Part shown: piece by piece, positions 1,761-9,279 of the stretch
How the letters are laid out: each line of letters begins with the position of its first letter
Numbering within the stretch: position 1 is the stretch's first letter
Assembly (NCBI RefSeq): GCF_014302995.1
Contig: NZ_CP060295.1
Span: 2,294,001-2,358,000 of the forward strand
Source of the DNA: Variovorax sp. PAMC26660
Lineage (GTDB): Bacteria; Pseudomonadota; Gammaproteobacteria; Burkholderiales; Burkholderiaceae_C
Length of the DNA: 64,000 nucleotides
Direction: 5' to 3'
The notes under the pieces: model-generated
What the model saw: only the letters and a program-made list of their open reading frames with translations
Told to the model about the DNA's origin: nothing
Databases searched by the model: none
Position numbers and translations under genes: made by a program

Positions 1761-2579
1761 TCAGAAGGCCATGCCGCGAGGGCGCACGCTCACTTCGTCG
1801 CTGGTGATCAGTTGCAGGCCGGCGTCGGTGCGCACCTGCAACTCGCCACCCCAGGCCACGCCTTCGCACAGGCCGGCGGTGCCGTCGCTCAGCACCACCT
1901 CGCGCCCGCGCAGCACGTCGCGCGCGGCAAAGCGTTCGGCGAATGGCGCGAAGCCGCCTTTCTCGAAGGCCAGCACGGTGCGCACCAGCGGCTCGGCCAT
2001 CTCGCGCAGCACCTCGGGCGCGCTCGCCTCGGGCCGCCACTGGCGCAGCCACGCGGGCGGCGTGCGCATGCCGTCGCCTTCGCGCGCGCCGATGTTGATG
2101 CCGATGCCGATCACGACGTAGCGCTGCCCGTCCTGCCGCGCGGCCTGCGGCATCGCGGTCTCGATCAGGATGCCGACCAGCTTGCTGTCGTTGACCCACA
2201 CATCGTTGGGCCACTTGAGCCCGATCTTGTGTTCGCCCGTCGGGTCGAGGCTTTCGGCCACGCTGACACCGACGGCGAGCGACAGGCCCGACCAGTCCGC
2301 GGGCGCCAGCGGCAGGCCCAGCGAAAAGGTGAGCGAGGCAGCGACCTCTTGCTGCGGCGCGCTTTGCCAGGGGCGACCGAGGCGGCCGCGTCCTGCCGTC
2401 TGGCGCTCGGCCACCAGCAGCACGGGCTCGGTGCGGCCGGCGCGCGCACGGCGCATCAGCTCGGTGTTGGACGAATCGACCTCGGCCACGGCCTCGACCG
2501 TGAAGCCCGGCAGCAGCGGCGCGACCGCTGCTGCGATCCGGTCTTCGAACCAGGCGGCCGTGGTGCTGCGGCTGTTCAT
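1761..2579 (-). CDS. birA: Biotin--[acetyl-CoA-carboxylase] ligase
   Basis: BirA activates biotin with ATP and attaches it to the carrier-protein lysine of acetyl-CoA carboxylase (AccB) and other biotin enzymes in the cytoplasm. The 272-residue protein shows the biotinyl-AMP loop GRGRLGR (63-69), KWPNDV (122-127), the ligase lysine in SKLVGIL (Lys133) and GIGIN (158-162). There is no N-terminal helix-turn-helix, so it is a monofunctional ligase rather than an E. coli-type repressor-ligase. The ATG lies 2 nt after the stop of the SET gene, so the two are probably cotranscribed. Confidence 0.95.
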   Translation of the reverse strand: MNSRSTTAAWFEDRIAAAVAPLLPGFTVEAVAEVDSSNTELMRRARAGRTEPVLLVAERQTAGRGRLGRPWQSAPQQEVAASLTFSLGLPLAPADWSGLSLAVGVSVAESLDPTGEHKIGLKWPNDVWVNDSKLVGILIETAMPQAARQDGQRYVVIGIGINIGAREGDGMRTPPAWLRQWRPEASAPEVLREMAEPLVRTVLAFEKGGFAPFAERFAARDVLRGREVVLSDGTAGLCEGVAWGGELQVRTDAGLQLITSDEVSVRPRGMAF

Positions 2580-2581
2580 GC

Positions 2582-3223
2582 TCAGTCCTTGTCGGACTTG
2601 TCTTTCTTGGCGGATTTCTTGTCCGCCTTCTTGTCGGCTTTTTTCCCGGCCTTCTTGTCAGCCTTCTTGTCAGCCTTCTTGGCTTCCTTCTTTTCGGCCT
2701 TTTTCTTTTCAGCCTTTTTCTTCGCCTTCTTCTTTTTCTTCTTCTCTTCGTCTTCGTCCTTGGGCGTCAGCAGCGTGCCGCGGCACTGCTCGGAGCCGCA
2801 CCAGCAGGGAAATTCGGACAGGAGCTTGGGCGTGTACGGCTCGTCGATGACCAGGCCGTAGTCGTAGTTGAGTTCTTCGCCCGCGGAGATGTTGCGCAGC
2901 GCCTTGATGAAAACGCGGCCATCGGTTTCATCGGCTTCGCAGTTCGGCTCGCACGAGTGGTTGATCCAGCGCGCGTCGTTGCCCTTGACGTTGCCGTCGA
3001 TCACACGCCCGTCATCGATGTGGAAGTAGAAGGTGTGGTTGGGCTGCGTCGGGTCATGCGGATGGCGGCGCAGCGCCTCTTTCCAGTTGATGACCTCGCC
3101 CTTGTATTCGATGAGCGTTTCGCCTTCGGCCAGGTCCTGCACGGCGAACACGCCGTTGCCATGAACATCGGAGCGCCGCATCTGAATTCGGCGGCCGGCG
3201 GAAAGTGGGGTTTTGGAAGGCAT
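2582..3223 (-). CDS. SET-domain protein-lysine methyltransferase with lysine-rich tail
   Basis: SET enzymes transfer methyl groups from S-adenosylmethionine to protein lysines. The first 150 of 213 residues form a compact SET domain: GNGVFA near the N-terminus, the cofactor/knot motif NHSCEPNC (88-95), GEELNYDY (115-122) and a post-SET zinc motif CxCxxxxC (Cys140, 142, 147). Residues about 155-213 are almost only Lys, Ala, Glu and Asp in KKAD-type repeats, resembling a histone H1 tail; this part could bind DNA or be a substrate itself. It leads the SET-birA unit and is divergent from topB. The substrate cannot be read from the sequence. Chlamydial SET proteins act on histone H1-like proteins, which makes a nucleoid target plausible. 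Confidence 0.9.
   Translation of the reverse strand: MPSKTPLSAGRRIQMRRSDVHGNGVFAVQDLAEGETLIEYKGEVINWKEALRRHPHDPTQPNHTFYFHIDDGRVIDGNVKGNDARWINHSCEPNCEADETDGRVFIKALRNISAGEELNYDYGLVIDEPYTPKLLSEFPCWCGSEQCRGTLLTPKDEDEEKKKKKKAKKKAEKKKAEKKEAKKADKKADKKAGKKADKKADKKSAKKDKSDKD
2625..2684 (-). repeat. 12-bp tandem repeat coding for the KKAD tail
   Basis: Five consecutive 12-bp units begin at 2625, 2637, 2649, 2661 and 2673. The units at 2649 and 2661 are identical (GCCTTCTTGTCA on the plus strand) and the others differ at a few positions. Each unit encodes four residues of the lysine-rich tail. The wider stretch of about 2585-2757 is strongly pyrimidine-biased on the plus strand. Such tracts are prone to slippage, so the tail length may vary between strains (inference). 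Confidence 0.8.
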
Positions 3224-3244
3224 CGCCGAAGTCTGTTAGTTTGA

Positions 3245-3279
3245 ATATGCACACATGCGCGTGTGCGCGTGCGCACGCG
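3245..3279. other. 35-nt alternating purine-pyrimidine tract (Z-DNA prone) in a divergent promoter region
   Basis: Every base from 3245 to 3279 alternates purine and pyrimidine without exception, mostly as GC and GT/AC steps, which is the sequence class that most readily adopts left-handed Z-DNA under negative supercoiling. It fills much of the 85 bp between the SET gene start (3223) and the topB start (3309). The alternation is seen directly; Z-DNA formation and any regulatory effect are inference. Confidence 0.75.
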
Positions 3280-3308
3280 GGAAGCCGCAGAGTATAGAGA
3301 GCCCTCAG

Positions 3309-6266
3309 ATGACAAAGACTTTGGTAATCGCAGAAAAGCCGTCGGTGGCACAGGACATCGTCCGTGCACTCACGCCGGTGGCCGGCAAATTCGACAAACA
3401 TGACGAACATTTCGAGAACGACAGCTATGTCGTGACCAGCGCTGTCGGCCATCTGGTCGAGATCCAGGCGCCCGAGGAATTCGACGTCAAGCGTGGCAAG
3501 TGGAGCTTTGCCAACCTGCCGGTGATTCCGCCCCACTTCGACCTGAAGCCGGTCGACAAGACAAAGACGCGCCTGAACGCCGTGGTCAAGCAGGCCAAGC
3601 GCAAGGACGTGACGCAACTCATCAACGCCTGCGACGCGGGCCGCGAGGGTGAGCTGATCTTTCGCCTGATCGAGCAGTACGCCGGCGGCAAGACGCCGCT
3701 GGGCAAGCCGGTCAAGCGCCTGTGGCTGCAGTCGATGACGCCGCAGGCCATTCGCGACGGCTTCGACCAGTTGCGCACCGAAAAGCAGATGCAGGGCCTG
3801 GCCGACGCCGCGCGCTCGCGCTCCGAGGCCGACTGGCTGGTGGGCATCAACGGCACGCGCGCCATGACGGCGTTCAACTCGCGCGACGGCGGCTTCTTCC
3901 TGACGACCGTGGGCCGCGTGCAGACGCCCACGCTGTCGGTGGTGGTCGAGCGCGAGGAGCAGATCCGCAAGTTCGTCTCGCGCAACTATTGGGAAGTGCA
4001 CGGCAGCTTCGCGGCCGAGGCCGGCGAGTATCCGGGCAAGTGGTTCGACGCCAACTGGAAGAAGGCCAACGCGCCGCTGCAGGCCAACGGCGAGCCCGAC
4101 CCCGAGCAGCGCGCCGACCGCGTGTGGAACGAGCAGGACGCGCTGGCCATTGCCAATGCCGCGCGCGGCAAGCCCGCCACGGTGACCGAAGAAAGCAAGC
4201 CCACCACGCAGGCCTCGCCCGCGCTGTTCGACCTGACCTCGCTGCAGCGCGAGGCCAACGGCCGTTTCGGCTTCAGCGCCAAGACCACGCTCGCGCTGGC
4301 GCAGAGCCTGTACGAACGCCACAAGGCGCTGACCTACCCGCGTACCGATTCGCGCGCGCTGCCGGAAGACTATCTGCCGGTGGTCAAGGACACCATGGGC
4401 ATGCTCGCCAACAGCGGCATGAAGCACCTGGCGCCGTTCGCCCAGCAGGCGGTCGACGGCAACTACGTCAAGCCCAACAAGCGCATCTTCGACAACGCCA
4501 AGGTGTCGGATCACTTTGCGATCATCCCCACGCTGCAGGCACCCAGCGGCCTGAGCGAAGCCGAGCAGAAGCTGTATGACTTCGTGGTGCGCCGCTTCCT
4601 GTCGGTGTTCTTCCCGAGCGCCGAGCACCAGGTGACCACGCGCATCAGCACGGTCGAGCAGGGCGGCAAGAAGTACCCGTTCCGCACCGACGGCAAGGTG
4701 CTGGTCAAGCCGGGCTGGCTCGCCATCTACGGCAAGGAAGCGCAGGACGACGAGAAGGAAGACGACAAGGACGGCAAGCGCCTCGTGCCGGTGAAGCCGG
4801 GCGAGATCGTCAACACCGAGTCGGCCGACATCAAGGGCCTGAAGACGCGCCCACCCGCGCGCTACTCTGAAGCCACGCTGCTCGGCGCCATGGAAGGCGC
4901 CGGCAAGACCATCGACGACGACGAGCTGCGCGAGGCCATGCAGGAGAAGGGCCTGGGCACGCCAGCCACGCGCGCGGCCACCATCGAAGGGCTGATCGCC
5001 GAGAAGTACATGCTGCGCGAAGGCCGCGAGCTGATCCCCACGGCCAAGGCCTTCCAGCTCATGACGCTGCTGCGCGGCCTGGGCGTGGAAGAACTGTCGA
5101 AAGCCGAGCTGACGGGCGAATGGGAATACAAGCTCGCGCAAATGGAAAAGGGCGCGCTCAGCCGCGACGCCTTCATGCGCGAGATCGCGGCGATGACCGA
5201 GCACATCGTCAAGAAGGCCAAGGAATACGACCGCGACACCGTGCCGGGCGACTACGCCACGCTCGAGACGCCGTGCCCCAATTGCGGTGGCGTGGTGAAG
5301 GAAAACTACCGCCGCTACGCCTGCACCGGCAAGACCGGCACCGGCGAAGACGCCTGCGGCTTCTCGTTCGGCAAGTCGCCGGCCGGGCGCACCTTCGAGG
5401 TGGCCGAGGCCGAGGCGCTGCTGCGCGACAAGCACATCGGCCCGATCGACGGCTTCCGCTCCAAGGCCGGCTGGCCTTTCACTTCGGAGATCGTCATCAA
5501 GTACGACGAGGAAGCGAAGAACTGGAAGCTGGAGTTCGACTTCGGCGACGACAAGAACGCCGAGAGCGGCGAGATCGTCGACTTCAGCGAGCAGGACACC
5601 GTGGGCCCGTGCCCGGTGTGCGGCGCGCCGGTGTTCGACCACGGCAGCAACTACGTCTGCGAGAAGTCGGTGCCGACCACTGCGCAGCCGACGCCCAGCT
5701 GCACCTTCAAGACCGGCAAGATCATCCTGCAGCAACCGGTGGAGCGCGCGCAGATGGAAAAGCTGCTCGCCACCGGCAAGACCGACCTGCTCGACAAGTT
5801 CGTGAGCATGCGCACGCGCCGCGCCTTCAAGGCCTTCCTCACGTGGAATGCTGAAGAGGGCAAGGTGACCTTCGAGTTCGCACCGCGTGAAGGCGGCAGC
5901 AAGTTCCCGCCGCGCAAGACCTTCGGCAAGCCAGCGGCAAAGACCGCGGCCGCCAAGAAGGTGGCAGCGAAGAAGACGCCCGCCGCCAAGAAGGCACCCG
6001 CCGCGAAGAAGGCGGCCACGCCACGCAAGCCGGGCACGGGCTTGAAGCCCAGCGACTCGCTGGCCGCGGTGATCGGCGCCGATCCGGTGGCGCGCACCGA
6101 GGTCATCAAGAAGCTGTGGGACTACATCAAGGCCAACAACCTGCAGGACGCGCAGAACAAGCGCGCGATCAATGCCGACGCCAAGCTGAAACCTGTGTTC
6201 GGCAAGGACCAGGTGACGATGTTCGAGCTTGCCGGCATCGTGGGCAAGCACCTCTCGGCGCTCTGA
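3309..6266 (+). CDS. topB: DNA topoisomerase III with C-terminal SWIB domain
   Basis: A type IA topoisomerase that cuts one strand, passes another and reseals it, decatenating DNA and removing negative supercoils. The 985 residues contain a Toprim domain (Glu9 in IAEKPS; DAGREGE at 109-115), the catalytic Tyr343 in LTYPRTDSR, two C-terminal zinc-finger-like regions (CPNC at 656-659; CPVC at 768-771), an Ala/Lys/Pro-rich H1-like linker (about 870-908) and a SWIB/MDM2-like domain (about 909-985, with LWDYIKANNLQD). It is much longer than E. coli TopB (about 650) because of the linker and SWIB. I chose ATG 3309 over an in-frame ATG at 3255 because MTKTLVIAEKPS aligns with the conserved Toprim start, and the extra residues would be encoded by the alternating GC tract. 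Confidence 0.95.
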   Translation: MTKTLVIAEKPSVAQDIVRALTPVAGKFDKHDEHFENDSYVVTSAVGHLVEIQAPEEFDVKRGKWSFANLPVIPPHFDLKPVDKTKTRLNAVVKQAKRKDVTQLINACDAGREGELIFRLIEQYAGGKTPLGKPVKRLWLQSMTPQAIRDGFDQLRTEKQMQGLADAARSRSEADWLVGINGTRAMTAFNSRDGGFFLTTVGRVQTPTLSVVVEREEQIRKFVSRNYWEVHGSFAAEAGEYPGKWFDANWKKANAPLQANGEPDPEQRADRVWNEQDALAIANAARGKPATVTEESKPTTQASPALFDLTSLQREANGRFGFSAKTTLALAQSLYERHKALTYPRTDSRALPEDYLPVVKDTMGMLANSGMKHLAPFAQQAVDGNYVKPNKRIFDNAKVSDHFAIIPTLQAPSGLSEAEQKLYDFVVRRFLSVFFPSAEHQVTTRISTVEQGGKKYPFRTDGKVLVKPGWLAIYGKEAQDDEKEDDKDGKRLVPVKPGEIVNTESADIKGLKTRPPARYSEATLLGAMEGAGKTIDDDELREAMQEKGLGTPATRAATIEGLIAEKYMLREGRELIPTAKAFQLMTLLRGLGVEELSKAELTGEWEYKLAQMEKGALSRDAFMREIAAMTEHIVKKAKEYDRDTVPGDYATLETPCPNCGGVVKENYRRYACTGKTGTGEDACGFSFGKSPAGRTFEVAEAEALLRDKHIGPIDGFRSKAGWPFTSEIVIKYDEEAKNWKLEFDFGDDKNAESGEIVDFSEQDTVGPCPVCGAPVFDHGSNYVCEKSVPTTAQPTPSCTFKTGKIILQQPVERAQMEKLLATGKTDLLDKFVSMRTRRAFKAFLTWNAEEGKVTFEFAPREGGSKFPPRKTFGKPAAKTAAAKKVAAKKTPAAKKAPAAKKAATPRKPGTGLKPSDSLAAVIGADPVARTEVIKKLWDYIKANNLQDAQNKRAINADAKLKPVFGKDQVTMFELAGIVGKHLSAL

Positions 6267-6269
6267 GCC

Positions 6270-7256
6270 ATGCAGCGCCGTCACCTTGCCGCCGCACTGG
6301 CTGCGGCAGCAGCGATGCTGGCGGGCGGCGCGGGCCTGGCCCACGCCGCCGCGTGGCCTGACAAGCCCGTCAAGCTGGTCGTGCCTTTCCCGCCCGGACA
6401 GGCCACCGACATCTTTGCCCGCGCACTCGCCGAACAGCTCGGCAAGCGACTGGGCCAGCCCGTGATCATCGACAACAAGGCTGGCGCGGGCAGCAACATC
6501 GGCACCGAGTTCGTGGTGCGCGCGCCGCCCGACGGCTACACGCTGGTGGTGGCTGGCAGCGCGATGGCGGTGAACCAGACGCTGTATGCCAAGCCGGGCT
6601 TCGACCCGCGCAAGGACCTGGTCGGCATCTCGCTGATCGCGAAGGTGCCGCTGGTGTTTCTGGCCACGCCCGAAAGCGGCATCCGCACGCTGGCCGACCT
6701 CACGGCGCGCGCGAAGGCCGAGCCCGGCCGGCTCAGCTACGCGAGCGCCGGCATCGGCGGCACGCAGCACCTGTCGGGGGAGATGTACAAATCAGCGGCG
6801 CACGTGTTCATCACGCACATTCCTTACCGGGGCAGCGGGCCGGCGCAGTCGGACTTTCTGGGCAACCAGATTCCGCTGATGGTCGATTCGGTGACGGCCG
6901 CGCTGCCGCACATCAAGGCGGGCAAGGCGATTGCGCTCGCGGTGACGTCGGCCACGCGCTCGTCGCAATTGCCCGATGTGCCCACCGTGCGCGAGTCCGG
7001 CGTGGCGGGCACGAAGAACTTCGAGGCCGTGGGCTGGCTCGGCCTGATGGCACCGCGCGGCACGCCGCCCGAGATCGTGGCGCGGCTGAACCACGAGGTG
7101 ACCGACATATTGAAGAGCGAGCAGATGGCGCGCTTCATCCGTGACCGGGGTTCCGAGCCGGCGCCCACGAGCGGACCCGAGTTCGACCGCTTCGTGGCGA
7201 GCGAGATCGGGCTCTGGGGTGCGGCGGTGAAGGCTTCGGGCGCCAAGCCCGAGTAA
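6270..7256 (+). CDS. Bug-family tripartite tricarboxylate transporter substrate-binding protein
   Basis: A periplasmic solute-binding protein of 328 residues. A signal peptide ends near residue 26-27 (GLAHA-A) and is followed by the Bug hallmark [15 protein letters not shown] and by [13 protein letters not shown] in the second lobe. Bug proteins capture carboxylates or related small acids for TctAB-type permeases; no tctA or tctB gene is nearby, so it is an orphan. Its ATG lies only 3 nt behind the topB stop, suggesting read-through from topB even though the functions look unrelated. The ligand cannot be predicted. Confidence 0.9.
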
Positions 7257-8316: not shown

Positions 8317-9279
8317 ATGCAACGTCGTCATTTCATTTCCACACTGGCCGCCGCTTCCGTCATCCCAGGAATATCTTTTGCCCAAGGCAAGCCGATCCGC
8401 CTGGTCGTGCCCTTCCCGCCCGGTGGCGCCACCGACATCACGGCCCGCGTGCTCTCCGAGCCCCTGGGCAAGATCCTCCAGCAGCCCGTGGTGATCGACA
8501 ACCGCGCCGGCGCCGGCGGCTCCATCGGCATGGCCGAGCTGGCCCGCGCCACCCCGGACGGCCTGACTTTCGGCGTGGCCACGCTGTCCACGCACGGCGT
8601 CAACCCGGCCGTCTACGCGAAGCTGCCCTACGACCCGATCAAGGGTTTCGTCGCGGTGACCGAGCTGGTGAAGGCACCGGGCGTGGTCGTCATCAATCCG
8701 GCCGTGCTGCCGGTCTCCAGCTTCGCCGAGCTGGTGAAGTACCTGAAGGCCAACCCGGGCAAGGTGTCGTACGCCTCGCCGGGCAACGGCACCATCGGCC
8801 ACATGTGGGGCGAGCTGTTCAAGAGCAGCACCGGAACCTCGATGGTGCACATCCCCTACCGCGGTGCGGGCCCGGCCATCAACGACGTGCTCGCGGGCCA
8901 GGTGCCGGTGTACTTCGACCAGGTCGCGTCGTCGCTGCCGCACGTGAAGTCGGGCAAGCTGAAGGCGCTGGCCGTGTCCTGGAGCGGCCGTCTCGACGTG
9001 CTGCCCGACACGCCGACCTACGCCGAGCTGGGCTACCCGGCCAACAACGCCCCGTCGTGGTTCGGCATGGTCGCGCCCGCTGGCACCTCGCCCGAGATCG
9101 CGCTGCGCATGCAGCAGGCCGTGGTCACCGCGCTGAAGGACAACTCGGTGCGCGAGCGCCTGGCGCTGCAGGGGCTGTACGCCTCGGGCACCACGCCGGC
9201 CGAGTTCACCAAGCAGATCGCGAGCGAGATCGAGAAGATGAAGAAGGTGGCCGCCTTCGCGCGCATCCGATTGGACTGA
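8317..9279 (+). CDS. Bug-family tripartite tricarboxylate transporter substrate-binding protein
   Basis: A periplasmic binding protein of 320 residues. The signal peptide has a twin-arginine-like start (MQRRHF) and likely cleavage after SFA (about 22). The mature part has [16 protein letters not shown] and VHIPYRGAGPAINDV, both typical of Bug proteins. It is followed 13 nt later by an N-formylglutamate amidohydrolase and preceded by a divergent LysR gene. The trio suggests uptake of an acid that is then deacylated; an acyl-amino acid is the obvious guess. No permease gene is nearby. Confidence 0.9.
   Translation: MQRRHFISTLAAASVIPGISFAQGKPIRLVVPFPPGGATDITARVLSEPLGKILQQPVVIDNRAGAGGSIGMAELARATPDGLTFGVATLSTHGVNPAVYAKLPYDPIKGFVAVTELVKAPGVVVINPAVLPVSSFAELVKYLKANPGKVSYASPGNGTIGHMWGELFKSSTGTSMVHIPYRGAGPAINDVLAGQVPVYFDQVASSLPHVKSGKLKALAVSWSGRLDVLPDTPTYAELGYPANNAPSWFGMVAPAGTSPEIALRMQQAVVTALKDNSVRERLALQGLYASGTTPAEFTKQIASEIEKMKKVAAFARIRLD

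Follow-up and report, generated by a model that had tools for sequence, protein, structure and literature searches.

An alternating purine-pyrimidine tract conserved between the divergent SET-birA and topB genes of Variovorax and its family: a candidate supercoiling-responsive element

Among the known systems closest to the one considered here is that of Chlamydiae, where the set of CT737 (NUE), cpnSET, CT460 and CT643, as presented in excerpts of PMC6426960, PMC3980110 and PMC12445093, has in common with the Variovorax genome that a SET protein occurs in one genome together with a small SWIB protein and a topoisomerase fused to SWIB, and that H1-like Lys/Ala sequence is involved. However, the chlamydial topoisomerase in these excerpts is TopA, whereas the locus of Variovorax sp. 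PAMC26660 carries a type III enzyme; here SET and topB are divergent neighbours, their pairing persists without SWIB, Hc1 is not found above the cut-off, and the hosts of the pair are, by their record titles, largely environmental bacteria. The host-directed proteins BtSET and LegAS4/RomA (excerpts of PMC3980110 and PMC10117894) likewise have a KMT2-like SET domain with post-SET, while the present one, unlike them, looks vertically inherited and stands beside birA and topB across the family sample. The topoisomerase itself is an ordinary member of the known topoisomerase III-SWIB group (NF011313/PRK14724), matched over its full length and with no difference at the protein level.

Promoter elements that form Z-DNA are known mainly from eukaryotes. 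With such elements (SIBZ theory in PMC3024258) the locus shares an alternating CG/CA-rich tract for which a B-Z transition is predicted when supercoiling is at a physiological level; it differs from them in that the tract is bacterial, lies at a topoisomerase gene and is conserved over the family by its alternation and not by its sequence. The supercoiling-responsive topoisomerase promoters, such as those of topA/gyrase in Streptomyces (PMC5055605, in excerpt), would be alike in tying a topoisomerase gene to topology, if the reading proposed below is true, but the candidate sensor is here an alternating tract that selection would maintain and that would have a promoter facing it on either side.

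In the window, i.e., the whole analysed stretch of 64,000 nucleotides, the SET-domain protein gene (2582..3223, minus strand, 213 aa) and topB (3309..6266, plus strand, 985 aa) lie head to head with their start codons 85 bp apart, so that the divergent arrangement around one intergenic region, pointed out in the first-pass annotation, is borne out. The Pfam SET match (E 1e-23) covers residues 22-123, and the closest solved structures are KMT2A SET domains (E 1.3e-26); the GxG, NHSCxPN and YxY motifs are present in columns with little or no variation among 15 relatives, and the post-SET cysteines C140, C142 and C147 (CxCx4C) are invariant in 15 sequences, while the LegAS4 equivalog model gave a weak match of 42 of 550 bits, far below its cut-off. 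The product is predicted from its sequence to be an active lysine methyltransferase of the KMT2-like type, and SET enzymes with methionine as the target exist as well (BurB; excerpt of PMC12542666). Its last ~57 residues (2585..2755, minus strand) form the KKAD/KKAE-type Lys-rich tail that the first pass had also described, which is sporadic among the relatives. The birA-type biotin ligase gene (1761..2579, minus strand; Pfam PF03099, TIGR00121 above the cut-off) starts 2 bp downstream of SET and probably forms an operon with it; this spacing and the conserved Z-DNA-prone tract in the gap are features beyond the earlier annotation. TopB contains the Pfam domains Toprim, Topoisom_bac, Toprim_Crpt and SWIB, the last at residues 913-982 (6045..6254, plus strand; PF02201, E 3.6e-26) after an AAKK-type, Lys/Ala-rich linker (5919..6044, plus strand, limits approximate), as had been read from the letters before. 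The reading frame is open back to 3255, with the homology beginning at the ATG at 3309. The NCBIfam equivalog NF011313 (TopoIII-SWIB) is matched by residues 1-983 with 1993 bits versus the cut-off of 1088 and spans the whole TopoIII-SWIB protein; therefore the fusion was already known, in agreement with the earlier remark. The Rfam scan of the window at gathering thresholds gave no matches.

The survey of adjacency proposed in the first-pass annotation demonstrated conservation far beyond close strains: SET and topB are divergent and at most 1 kb apart in 121 of the 123 sampled family genomes with both genes among the matches listed, the remaining two having them on separate contigs, and the pairing recurs in all 80 named loci. 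In the fully read family loci (40/40) birA-SET/topB is kept while the other neighbours decay, with a histidine kinase in at most 22 of the 40 (some of them weak paralogues) and tctC in two. BirA is found in 78 of the 80 named loci and directly faces topB in five of the six loci lacking SET. The conserved unit is the divergent pair of (SET-)birA versus topB, usually with an alternating tract of 20-50 bp between them; within it SET, the predicted active enzyme, is kept in some loci and lost from others. Outside the host's family the neighbours of SET differ.

This conservation bears on the earlier proposal that SET and TopB are functional partners, the Lys/Ala linker of TopB being the site that SET methylates, by analogy to the chlamydial SET/H1-like proposal. 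In its favour are the family-wide pairing itself, the retained catalytic residues of SET and the Lys-rich linker of TopB, the position of SET between gyrB and topB in one other family (L114, L115, L138) or directly after gyrB in three small genomes of another family, and the SET/SWIB/topoisomerase complex proposed for Chlamydiae in the excerpted part of PMC6426960. However, 46 of the 121 divergent pairs have topB matches ending near residue 880-930, short of SWIB, a direct search found SWIB absent from 23 of the 110 judgeable SET loci, and SWIB is present in two of the six SET-less loci; a SET tail of at least 20 aa with at least 20% Lys occurs in just 5 of the 43 fetched family loci (window excluded), birA is equally close and equally conserved, and no topoisomerase adjoins SET in most other families seen. 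The pairing is thus independent of SWIB and of the Lys-rich tails, and since SWIB, linker and SET tail all vary independently of it, SET as the partner of the TopB linker is weakened to a rather improbable explanation: the adjacency stands, whereas the SWIB domain or the Lys-rich linker of TopB is not supported as the reason for the presence of SET.

It is possible, though on balance doubtful, that SET targets a stand-alone H1-like SWIB protein or, as in the third option of the first-pass annotation, another nucleoid protein, the adjacency to topB merely reflecting a shared topology-responsive promoter region. The genome encodes a second SWIB gene for a 161-aa H1-like Lys/Ala protein (AAKKAPAKK) ending in SWIB, 67% identical to that of TopB over 72 residues; this gene, together with the SWIB domain reported in 11% of Proteobacteria (excerpt of PMC6426960), makes the former statement that SWIB is otherwise eukaryotic too strong. 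In other families, Lys/Ala stretches are seen again on SET, at one end or the other, sometimes N-terminal and sometimes missing, and the excerpt of PMC3980110 reports the methylation of Hc1 by cpnSET but also NUE without Hc1 methylation. An Hc1-type histone was rejected as the substrate here, as no Hc1 (Pfam PF07432) passes the cut-off in the genome, the best match having E 0.66 and 13.2 of 23.5 bits. The KKAxKKA pattern search of the genome found the SET tail as its sole match; the spacing misses the AAKK-type linkers and the H1-like SWIB protein, and therefore this search excludes nothing. The likeliest candidate substrates would be Lys-rich nucleoid-type proteins, namely the own tail of SET or the H1-like SWIB protein.

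The gap between the two start codons holds a purine-pyrimidine alternation, unbroken for 35 bp (3245..3279, found by pattern search), that is prone to Z-DNA. A 26-nt alternating pattern matches just two places in the genome (7.39 Mb), this tract being the longer; among 846,108 bases of 41 genomes, runs of at least 20 nt were found 29 times in the SET-topB gap and nowhere else, and those of at least 18 nt 34 times in the gap and twice elsewhere. The alternation score reaches at least 15 in 126 of the 139 distinct gaps versus 3.1% of 6,950 dinucleotide shuffles, and at least 20 in 105 of them versus 0.26%. The other 13 gaps score below 15, some of them (L021, L074, L126) having both promoter boxes and no tract, and the SET-less loci retain alternating runs of 11-19 bp in four of six. 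Ten of the 139 gaps exceed 400 nt, with extra material between the tract and topB; by eye, L195/L199 have a thioredoxin-like reading frame there. In other families the alternation is just 7-11 bp upstream of topB (n=12) and 6-17 bp upstream of SET (n=62 loci, some being two pieces of one gene); the tract is therefore not general to topB, and a general feature of either gene was rejected. A second recurrent tract (G000:C1:3627859, G159, G164, G129, G023) is not comparable, lying inside a glucoamylase-like frame, which was read for the first four and judged from the letters alone for G023.

The 599 tract sites had 18 transitions and 3 transversions, and the flanks (1,969 sites) 70 and 76 (p=0.0018), i.e., in the tract transitions occur at the flank rate and transversions are depleted about eightfold, and even and odd gap lengths stand at 11:1 in the tract versus 4:22 in the flanks (p=1.2e-5). 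Accordingly, it is the alternation, rather than base identity, that is conserved, a pattern that Z-DNA formation would require. Relative to alternating steps of the flanks, CG/GC steps are enriched and TA/AT depleted. These patterns give good support to the capacity for left-handed Z-DNA under negative supercoiling as the constrained property. With B-Z energies that nearly agree with those tabulated in PMC3024258 and a two-state model assuming a 5-kb domain, the transition is expected at sigma -0.042 in the window and at a median of -0.041 over 131 gaps, these values being energy estimates only. Dinucleotide slippage could contribute in part to the even-length gaps. The coding origin of the tract was rejected, because the gaps of 2, 4 and 6 nt within it would mostly break a frame.

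Another alternation-dependent property, such as a flexible or kinkable pyrimidine-purine hinge, a promoter-proximal pausing array or a phase-variable dinucleotide tract, is an unlikely ground for the conservation; each likewise requires alternation or yields even-length gaps, but TA, the most flexible dinucleotide step, is depleted here, and mixed units slip poorly while slippage leaves the depletion of transversions unexplained. A GC-rich stretch by the start site is a known supercoiling-sensitive promoter feature (excerpt of PMC8422995), which speaks for this group. It is very improbable that the tract serves a sequence-specific regulator as its operator, the sites alternating by chance: an edge starting ATATGCACACATGCG or its near variant recurs in several genera, but elsewhere the sequence varies between genera while the alternation stays, the flank-like transition rate argues against it, and hairpins or palindromes are not in excess of unit shuffles. 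The same comparison, in which tracts with shuffled units fold as well as the native ones (mean z 0.04, n=114), led to rejection of a cruciform or hairpin role.

The topB and SET-birA promoters appear, with moderate confidence, to face each other across the tract. The candidate -10 box of topB, TAGTTT (3237..3242, plus strand), is placed by comparison with relatives, and that of SET-birA, TATACT (3291..3296, minus strand), holds the position of the relatives' TACAAT box, the SET-side scan of the window having preferred the overlapping TACTCT; a stricter sigma-70 promoter scan had no passes in the window. In 107 of 128 cases, ATTGTA (TACAAT on the opposite strand) is present no more than 45 nt past the tract, and all six SET-less loci keep it. 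The facing arrangement outscores the alternative for topB in 103 and for SET in 106 of 118 gaps, the topB-directed boxes being weak (mean score 5.16 versus 4.53, sd 0.58, for shuffled flanks).

We consider it about an even chance that a supercoiling-responsive element lies between the facing topB and SET-birA promoters, with the Z-DNA-prone tract as its switch. The -10 of SET-birA (TACAAT/TATACT) would lie between the tract and topB, and that of topB (TAnnnT) on the SET side; with this placement, each of the two transcripts would begin close to its own edge of the tract, opposite that of the other, and cross the tract. Past about sigma -0.04, the tract might flip and take up ~7 turns, which may hinder the loading of DNA at both promoters, and upon relaxation it might return to the B-form and let both promoters fire; the sign could also be opposite. 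With a tract flipping in this manner, the expression of topoisomerase and SET-birA would follow the local DNA topology. Selection on alternation, not on sequence, would accordingly make the tract a built-in supercoiling sensor of the topoisomerase gene. That the family has kept a Z-DNA switch dedicated to this place, with the promoters of topoisomerase III and of the SET-biotin ligase operon facing each other across it, i.e., a natural bacterial Z-DNA regulatory element maintained by selection, is put forward tentatively, at somewhat less than an even chance. Among the articles listed in searches of the open-licence PMC literature, none described a Z-prone promoter of topB or, for the host's family, the pairing of SET with topB.

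To our knowledge, it is unsettled whether Z-DNA plays any natural role in bacteria, and the 139 distinct natural versions of the gap at a topology-changing gene therefore make such a role directly testable. The pairing of SET and topB independently of SWIB and Lys-rich tails points the search for the SET substrate in another direction, and the locus suggests an intra-bacterial role for SET proteins, the class better known as host-directed effectors.

In the single-contig genome (7.39 Mb) of Variovorax sp. PAMC26660, the gene of a 213-aa SET-domain protein (2582-3223, minus strand), whose nearest solved relatives are the KMT2A SET domains and whose catalytic and post-SET motifs are kept as in 15 relatives, lies head to head with topB (3309-6266, plus strand), assigned by domain and family model matches to topoisomerase III with a C-terminal SWIB and covered by an already named NCBIfam equivalog. 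Most of the closest named SET proteins come from Variovorax. A birA-type gene (1761-2579, same direction as SET) starts 2 bp past the SET end, and SET and birA therefore probably form an operon directed away from topB. An evenly drawn sample of the host's family, Burkholderiaceae_C (200 genomes, 141 genera), gave matches to SET in 187 genomes and to topB in 193. Among the matches listed (150 genomes for each gene, 123 with both), the two genes were divergent within 1 kb in 121 of 123 genomes, with a median distance of 157 bp between the matches; in the remaining two they were on separate contigs, topB being at most 226 bp from a contig end in both. The divergent pair is also present in five more genomes, where one of the two matches was unlisted, and in each of 80 named loci of the genome collection (the 80 best among 589 relatives of SET, picked by SET and partly from the same genomes as the sample), which represent Variovorax, Acidovorax, Hydrogenophaga, Polaromonas, Limnohabitans, Rhodoferax, Comamonas, Ramlibacter, Piscinibacter and others; one, labelled Brevundimonas, may be a misnamed bin. 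Thus, the pairing to which the first-pass annotation drew attention is real and family-wide. Full reading of 40 family loci showed birA, SET and topB together in every one, while the histidine kinase of the window had a match in 22 of them, some of these being weak paralogues, and the window's tctC in 2; the conserved block is birA-SET/topB, and the surroundings decay. Past topB in the window, two TctC-type receptor genes (6270-7256 and 8317-9279) stand on either side of a lysR gene, a neighbourhood retained in only 2 of the 40 relatives' loci.

It had been proposed from the window that SET may methylate the Lys-rich linker of TopB, its own tail or another nucleoid protein. However, 46 of 121 topB matches stopped short of the SWIB end (75 reached it), and a direct search of the 123 loci with SET found SWIB in 87 and not in 23, with 13 not judgeable; SWIB was also present in two of six SET-less loci. 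A Lys-rich SET tail, defined as at least 20 aa with at least 20% Lys, was present in 5 of the 43 family loci fetched, a count that leaves out the window and L083 (18 aa); in other families the Lys/Ala stretch of SET is N-terminal, C-terminal or missing. Since SWIB is missing from many topB genes and the SET tail is sporadic, an action of SET on the SWIB linker cannot be what the pairing depends on, although SET may have such an activity within this genus. SET was unmatched in 13 of the 200 family genomes, and in six of these that were read birA directly faces topB in five, the sixth being at a contig end. In L065, L066 and related loci, a SET gene encoding an N-terminal H1-like Lys/Ala tail adjoins lipB, which shares one Pfam family with birA, perhaps by coincidence.

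The gap between the SET and topB start codons contains an unbroken purine-pyrimidine alternation of 35 bp (3245-3279). A 20-nt alternating pattern, expected 0.6 times in the window by shuffling, was found only at this tract (8 overlapping matches). In the whole genome, a 26-nt pyrimidine-first pattern, blind to an exact 26-mer of the opposite phase, occurred in two places, the tract and position 6294955, a tandem repeat of CATGCA, and a purine-bounded 20-nt pattern in eight, the seven besides the tract lying inside ORFs of a simple gene caller. In 846,108 bases (the window plus the 40 family loci), the SET-topB gap held 29 runs of at least 20 nt vs 0 elsewhere, and 37 vs 11 of at least 16 nt. 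Alternation scores of at least 15, 20 and 25 were reached by 126, 105 and 77 of 139 distinct gaps, respectively, vs 3.1%, 0.26% and 0.014% of 6,950 dinucleotide shuffles (simple random-path), with 13 gaps scoring below 15; an unbroken run of at least 20 nt was present in 107 of the 139, the longest being 53 nt. A purine-bounded tract of at least 24 nt was found in 101 of the 200 family genomes, and among the matches listed 75 of 131 tract positions, in 74 genomes, were within about 800 bp of a topB or SET start, 17 of the other 56 belonging to genomes for which no match to topB or SET was tabulated. Several genomes also share an alternating tract of about 25 nt within the coding sequence of a glucoamylase-like gene (L273 at 1861, i.e., G000:C1:3627859 of the host; L274-L276). 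Ten of the 139 gaps exceed 400 nt; in the 672-nt gaps of L195 and L199, a thioredoxin-like reading frame was seen by eye between tract and topB.

For the substitution test, gap sequences were aligned in pairs, each used once, with the tract taken as the union of runs of at least 15 nt in either member; its definition on one member gave stronger numbers but hides the transversions of that lineage, and the union-based counts are therefore relied on. In 20 pairs of at least 80% identity, the 599 tract sites had 18 transitions and 3 transversions vs 70 and 76 in the 1,969 flanking sites, i.e., similar transition rates (3.0% vs 3.6%) and a deficit of transversions (0.50% vs 3.86%, p=0.0018). The transition to transversion counts for tract vs flanks were 11:1 vs 19:29 at 90% identity, 15:3 vs 47:60 at 85% and 50:14 vs 129:140 at 70%. 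Alignment gaps of even and odd length stood at 11:1 in the tract vs 4:22 in the flanks (p=1.2e-5); slippage may contribute to the even-length gaps, but not to the transversion deficit. Thus, in the tract the purine/pyrimidine phase is constrained and the base identity is free. CG/GC steps are more, and TA/AT steps fewer, in the tracts than in alternating steps of the flanks, the direction favoured by Z-DNA.

When estimated with a two-state model of a 5-kb domain and energies close to those of a published table (PMC3024258), the window tract would undergo the B-Z transition at sigma -0.042 and absorb 6.9 turns, the median of 131 gaps being -0.041. We infer that the tract may form Z-DNA and act in regulation, of whichever sign. 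Of 128 gaps, 107 carry ATTGTA no more than 45 nt beyond the tract towards topB, typically at a distance of about 10 bp; its other strand, TACAAT, is a good candidate for the SET -10 box, and a sigma-70-weighted scan of 118 gaps picked it as such in 87. On the SET side, TAnnnT boxes 5' of the tract are less uniform (TTGACA-16-TATGGT in L195 and L199). The facing promoter arrangement scored higher in 103 (topB) and 106 (SET) of 118 gaps, with box scores of 5.16 and 5.33 vs 4.53 and 4.65 in shuffled flanks (sd about 0.58). A stricter promoter scan of the window found none, and its own boxes are therefore inferred from relatives. ATTGTA is kept in the SET-less loci (6/6), as are runs of 11-19 bp in 4/6; the element is therefore part of the divergent promoter and not of SET. 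The tract is not indispensable, since some gaps have the boxes without it.

Outside the family, SET was matched in 64 and topB in 125 of 260 genomes sampled from the order (8 from the window's family), and SET in 25 of 370 from the class (3 from the family). In one other family (L114, L115, L138; the sequence of L142 ends before gyrB), gyrB and topB flank SET, which is convergent with topB; in another, three small genomes (L123, L124 and L064, the last called from a partial upstream frame) have SET directly 3' of gyrB. Its other neighbours include an ilvD-type gene, lipB, folE, a histidine kinase and an acetolactate synthase gene (adjoining in some loci, two genes off in others); gyrB, lipB, ilvD-type, ilvB-type, folE and dprA were identified by model, the rest by eye. 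Topology genes are thus beside SET in two other families and not in several further ones. As to a substrate, the leading candidate for methylation among nucleoid proteins is a stand-alone H1-like SWIB protein of 161 aa (L128 9630-10115, minus strand, G000:C1 near 5364635 of the host), which joins a Lys/Ala repeat half of AAKKAPAKK type to a SWIB with 67% identity to that of TopB over 72 residues; a database search with it gave 6,279 matches at 1e-8, with SWIB in 120 of 120 among the matches listed. By appearance, this protein is the source of the C-terminal extension of TopB, which resembles a fused copy of it. The second SET gene of the genome (L127, G000:C1:5534261-5534695), about 40% identical to the first, encodes no Lys-rich tail within the frame that was read.

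The pairing is best explained by a single promoter region shared by the birA/topB unit, with SET usually included, that would respond to DNA topology. BtSET of Burkholderia is, by description in excerpts of PMC3980110 and PMC10117894, a secreted effector; the family-wide presence of SET in largely environmental relatives invites the question of its role inside the bacterium.
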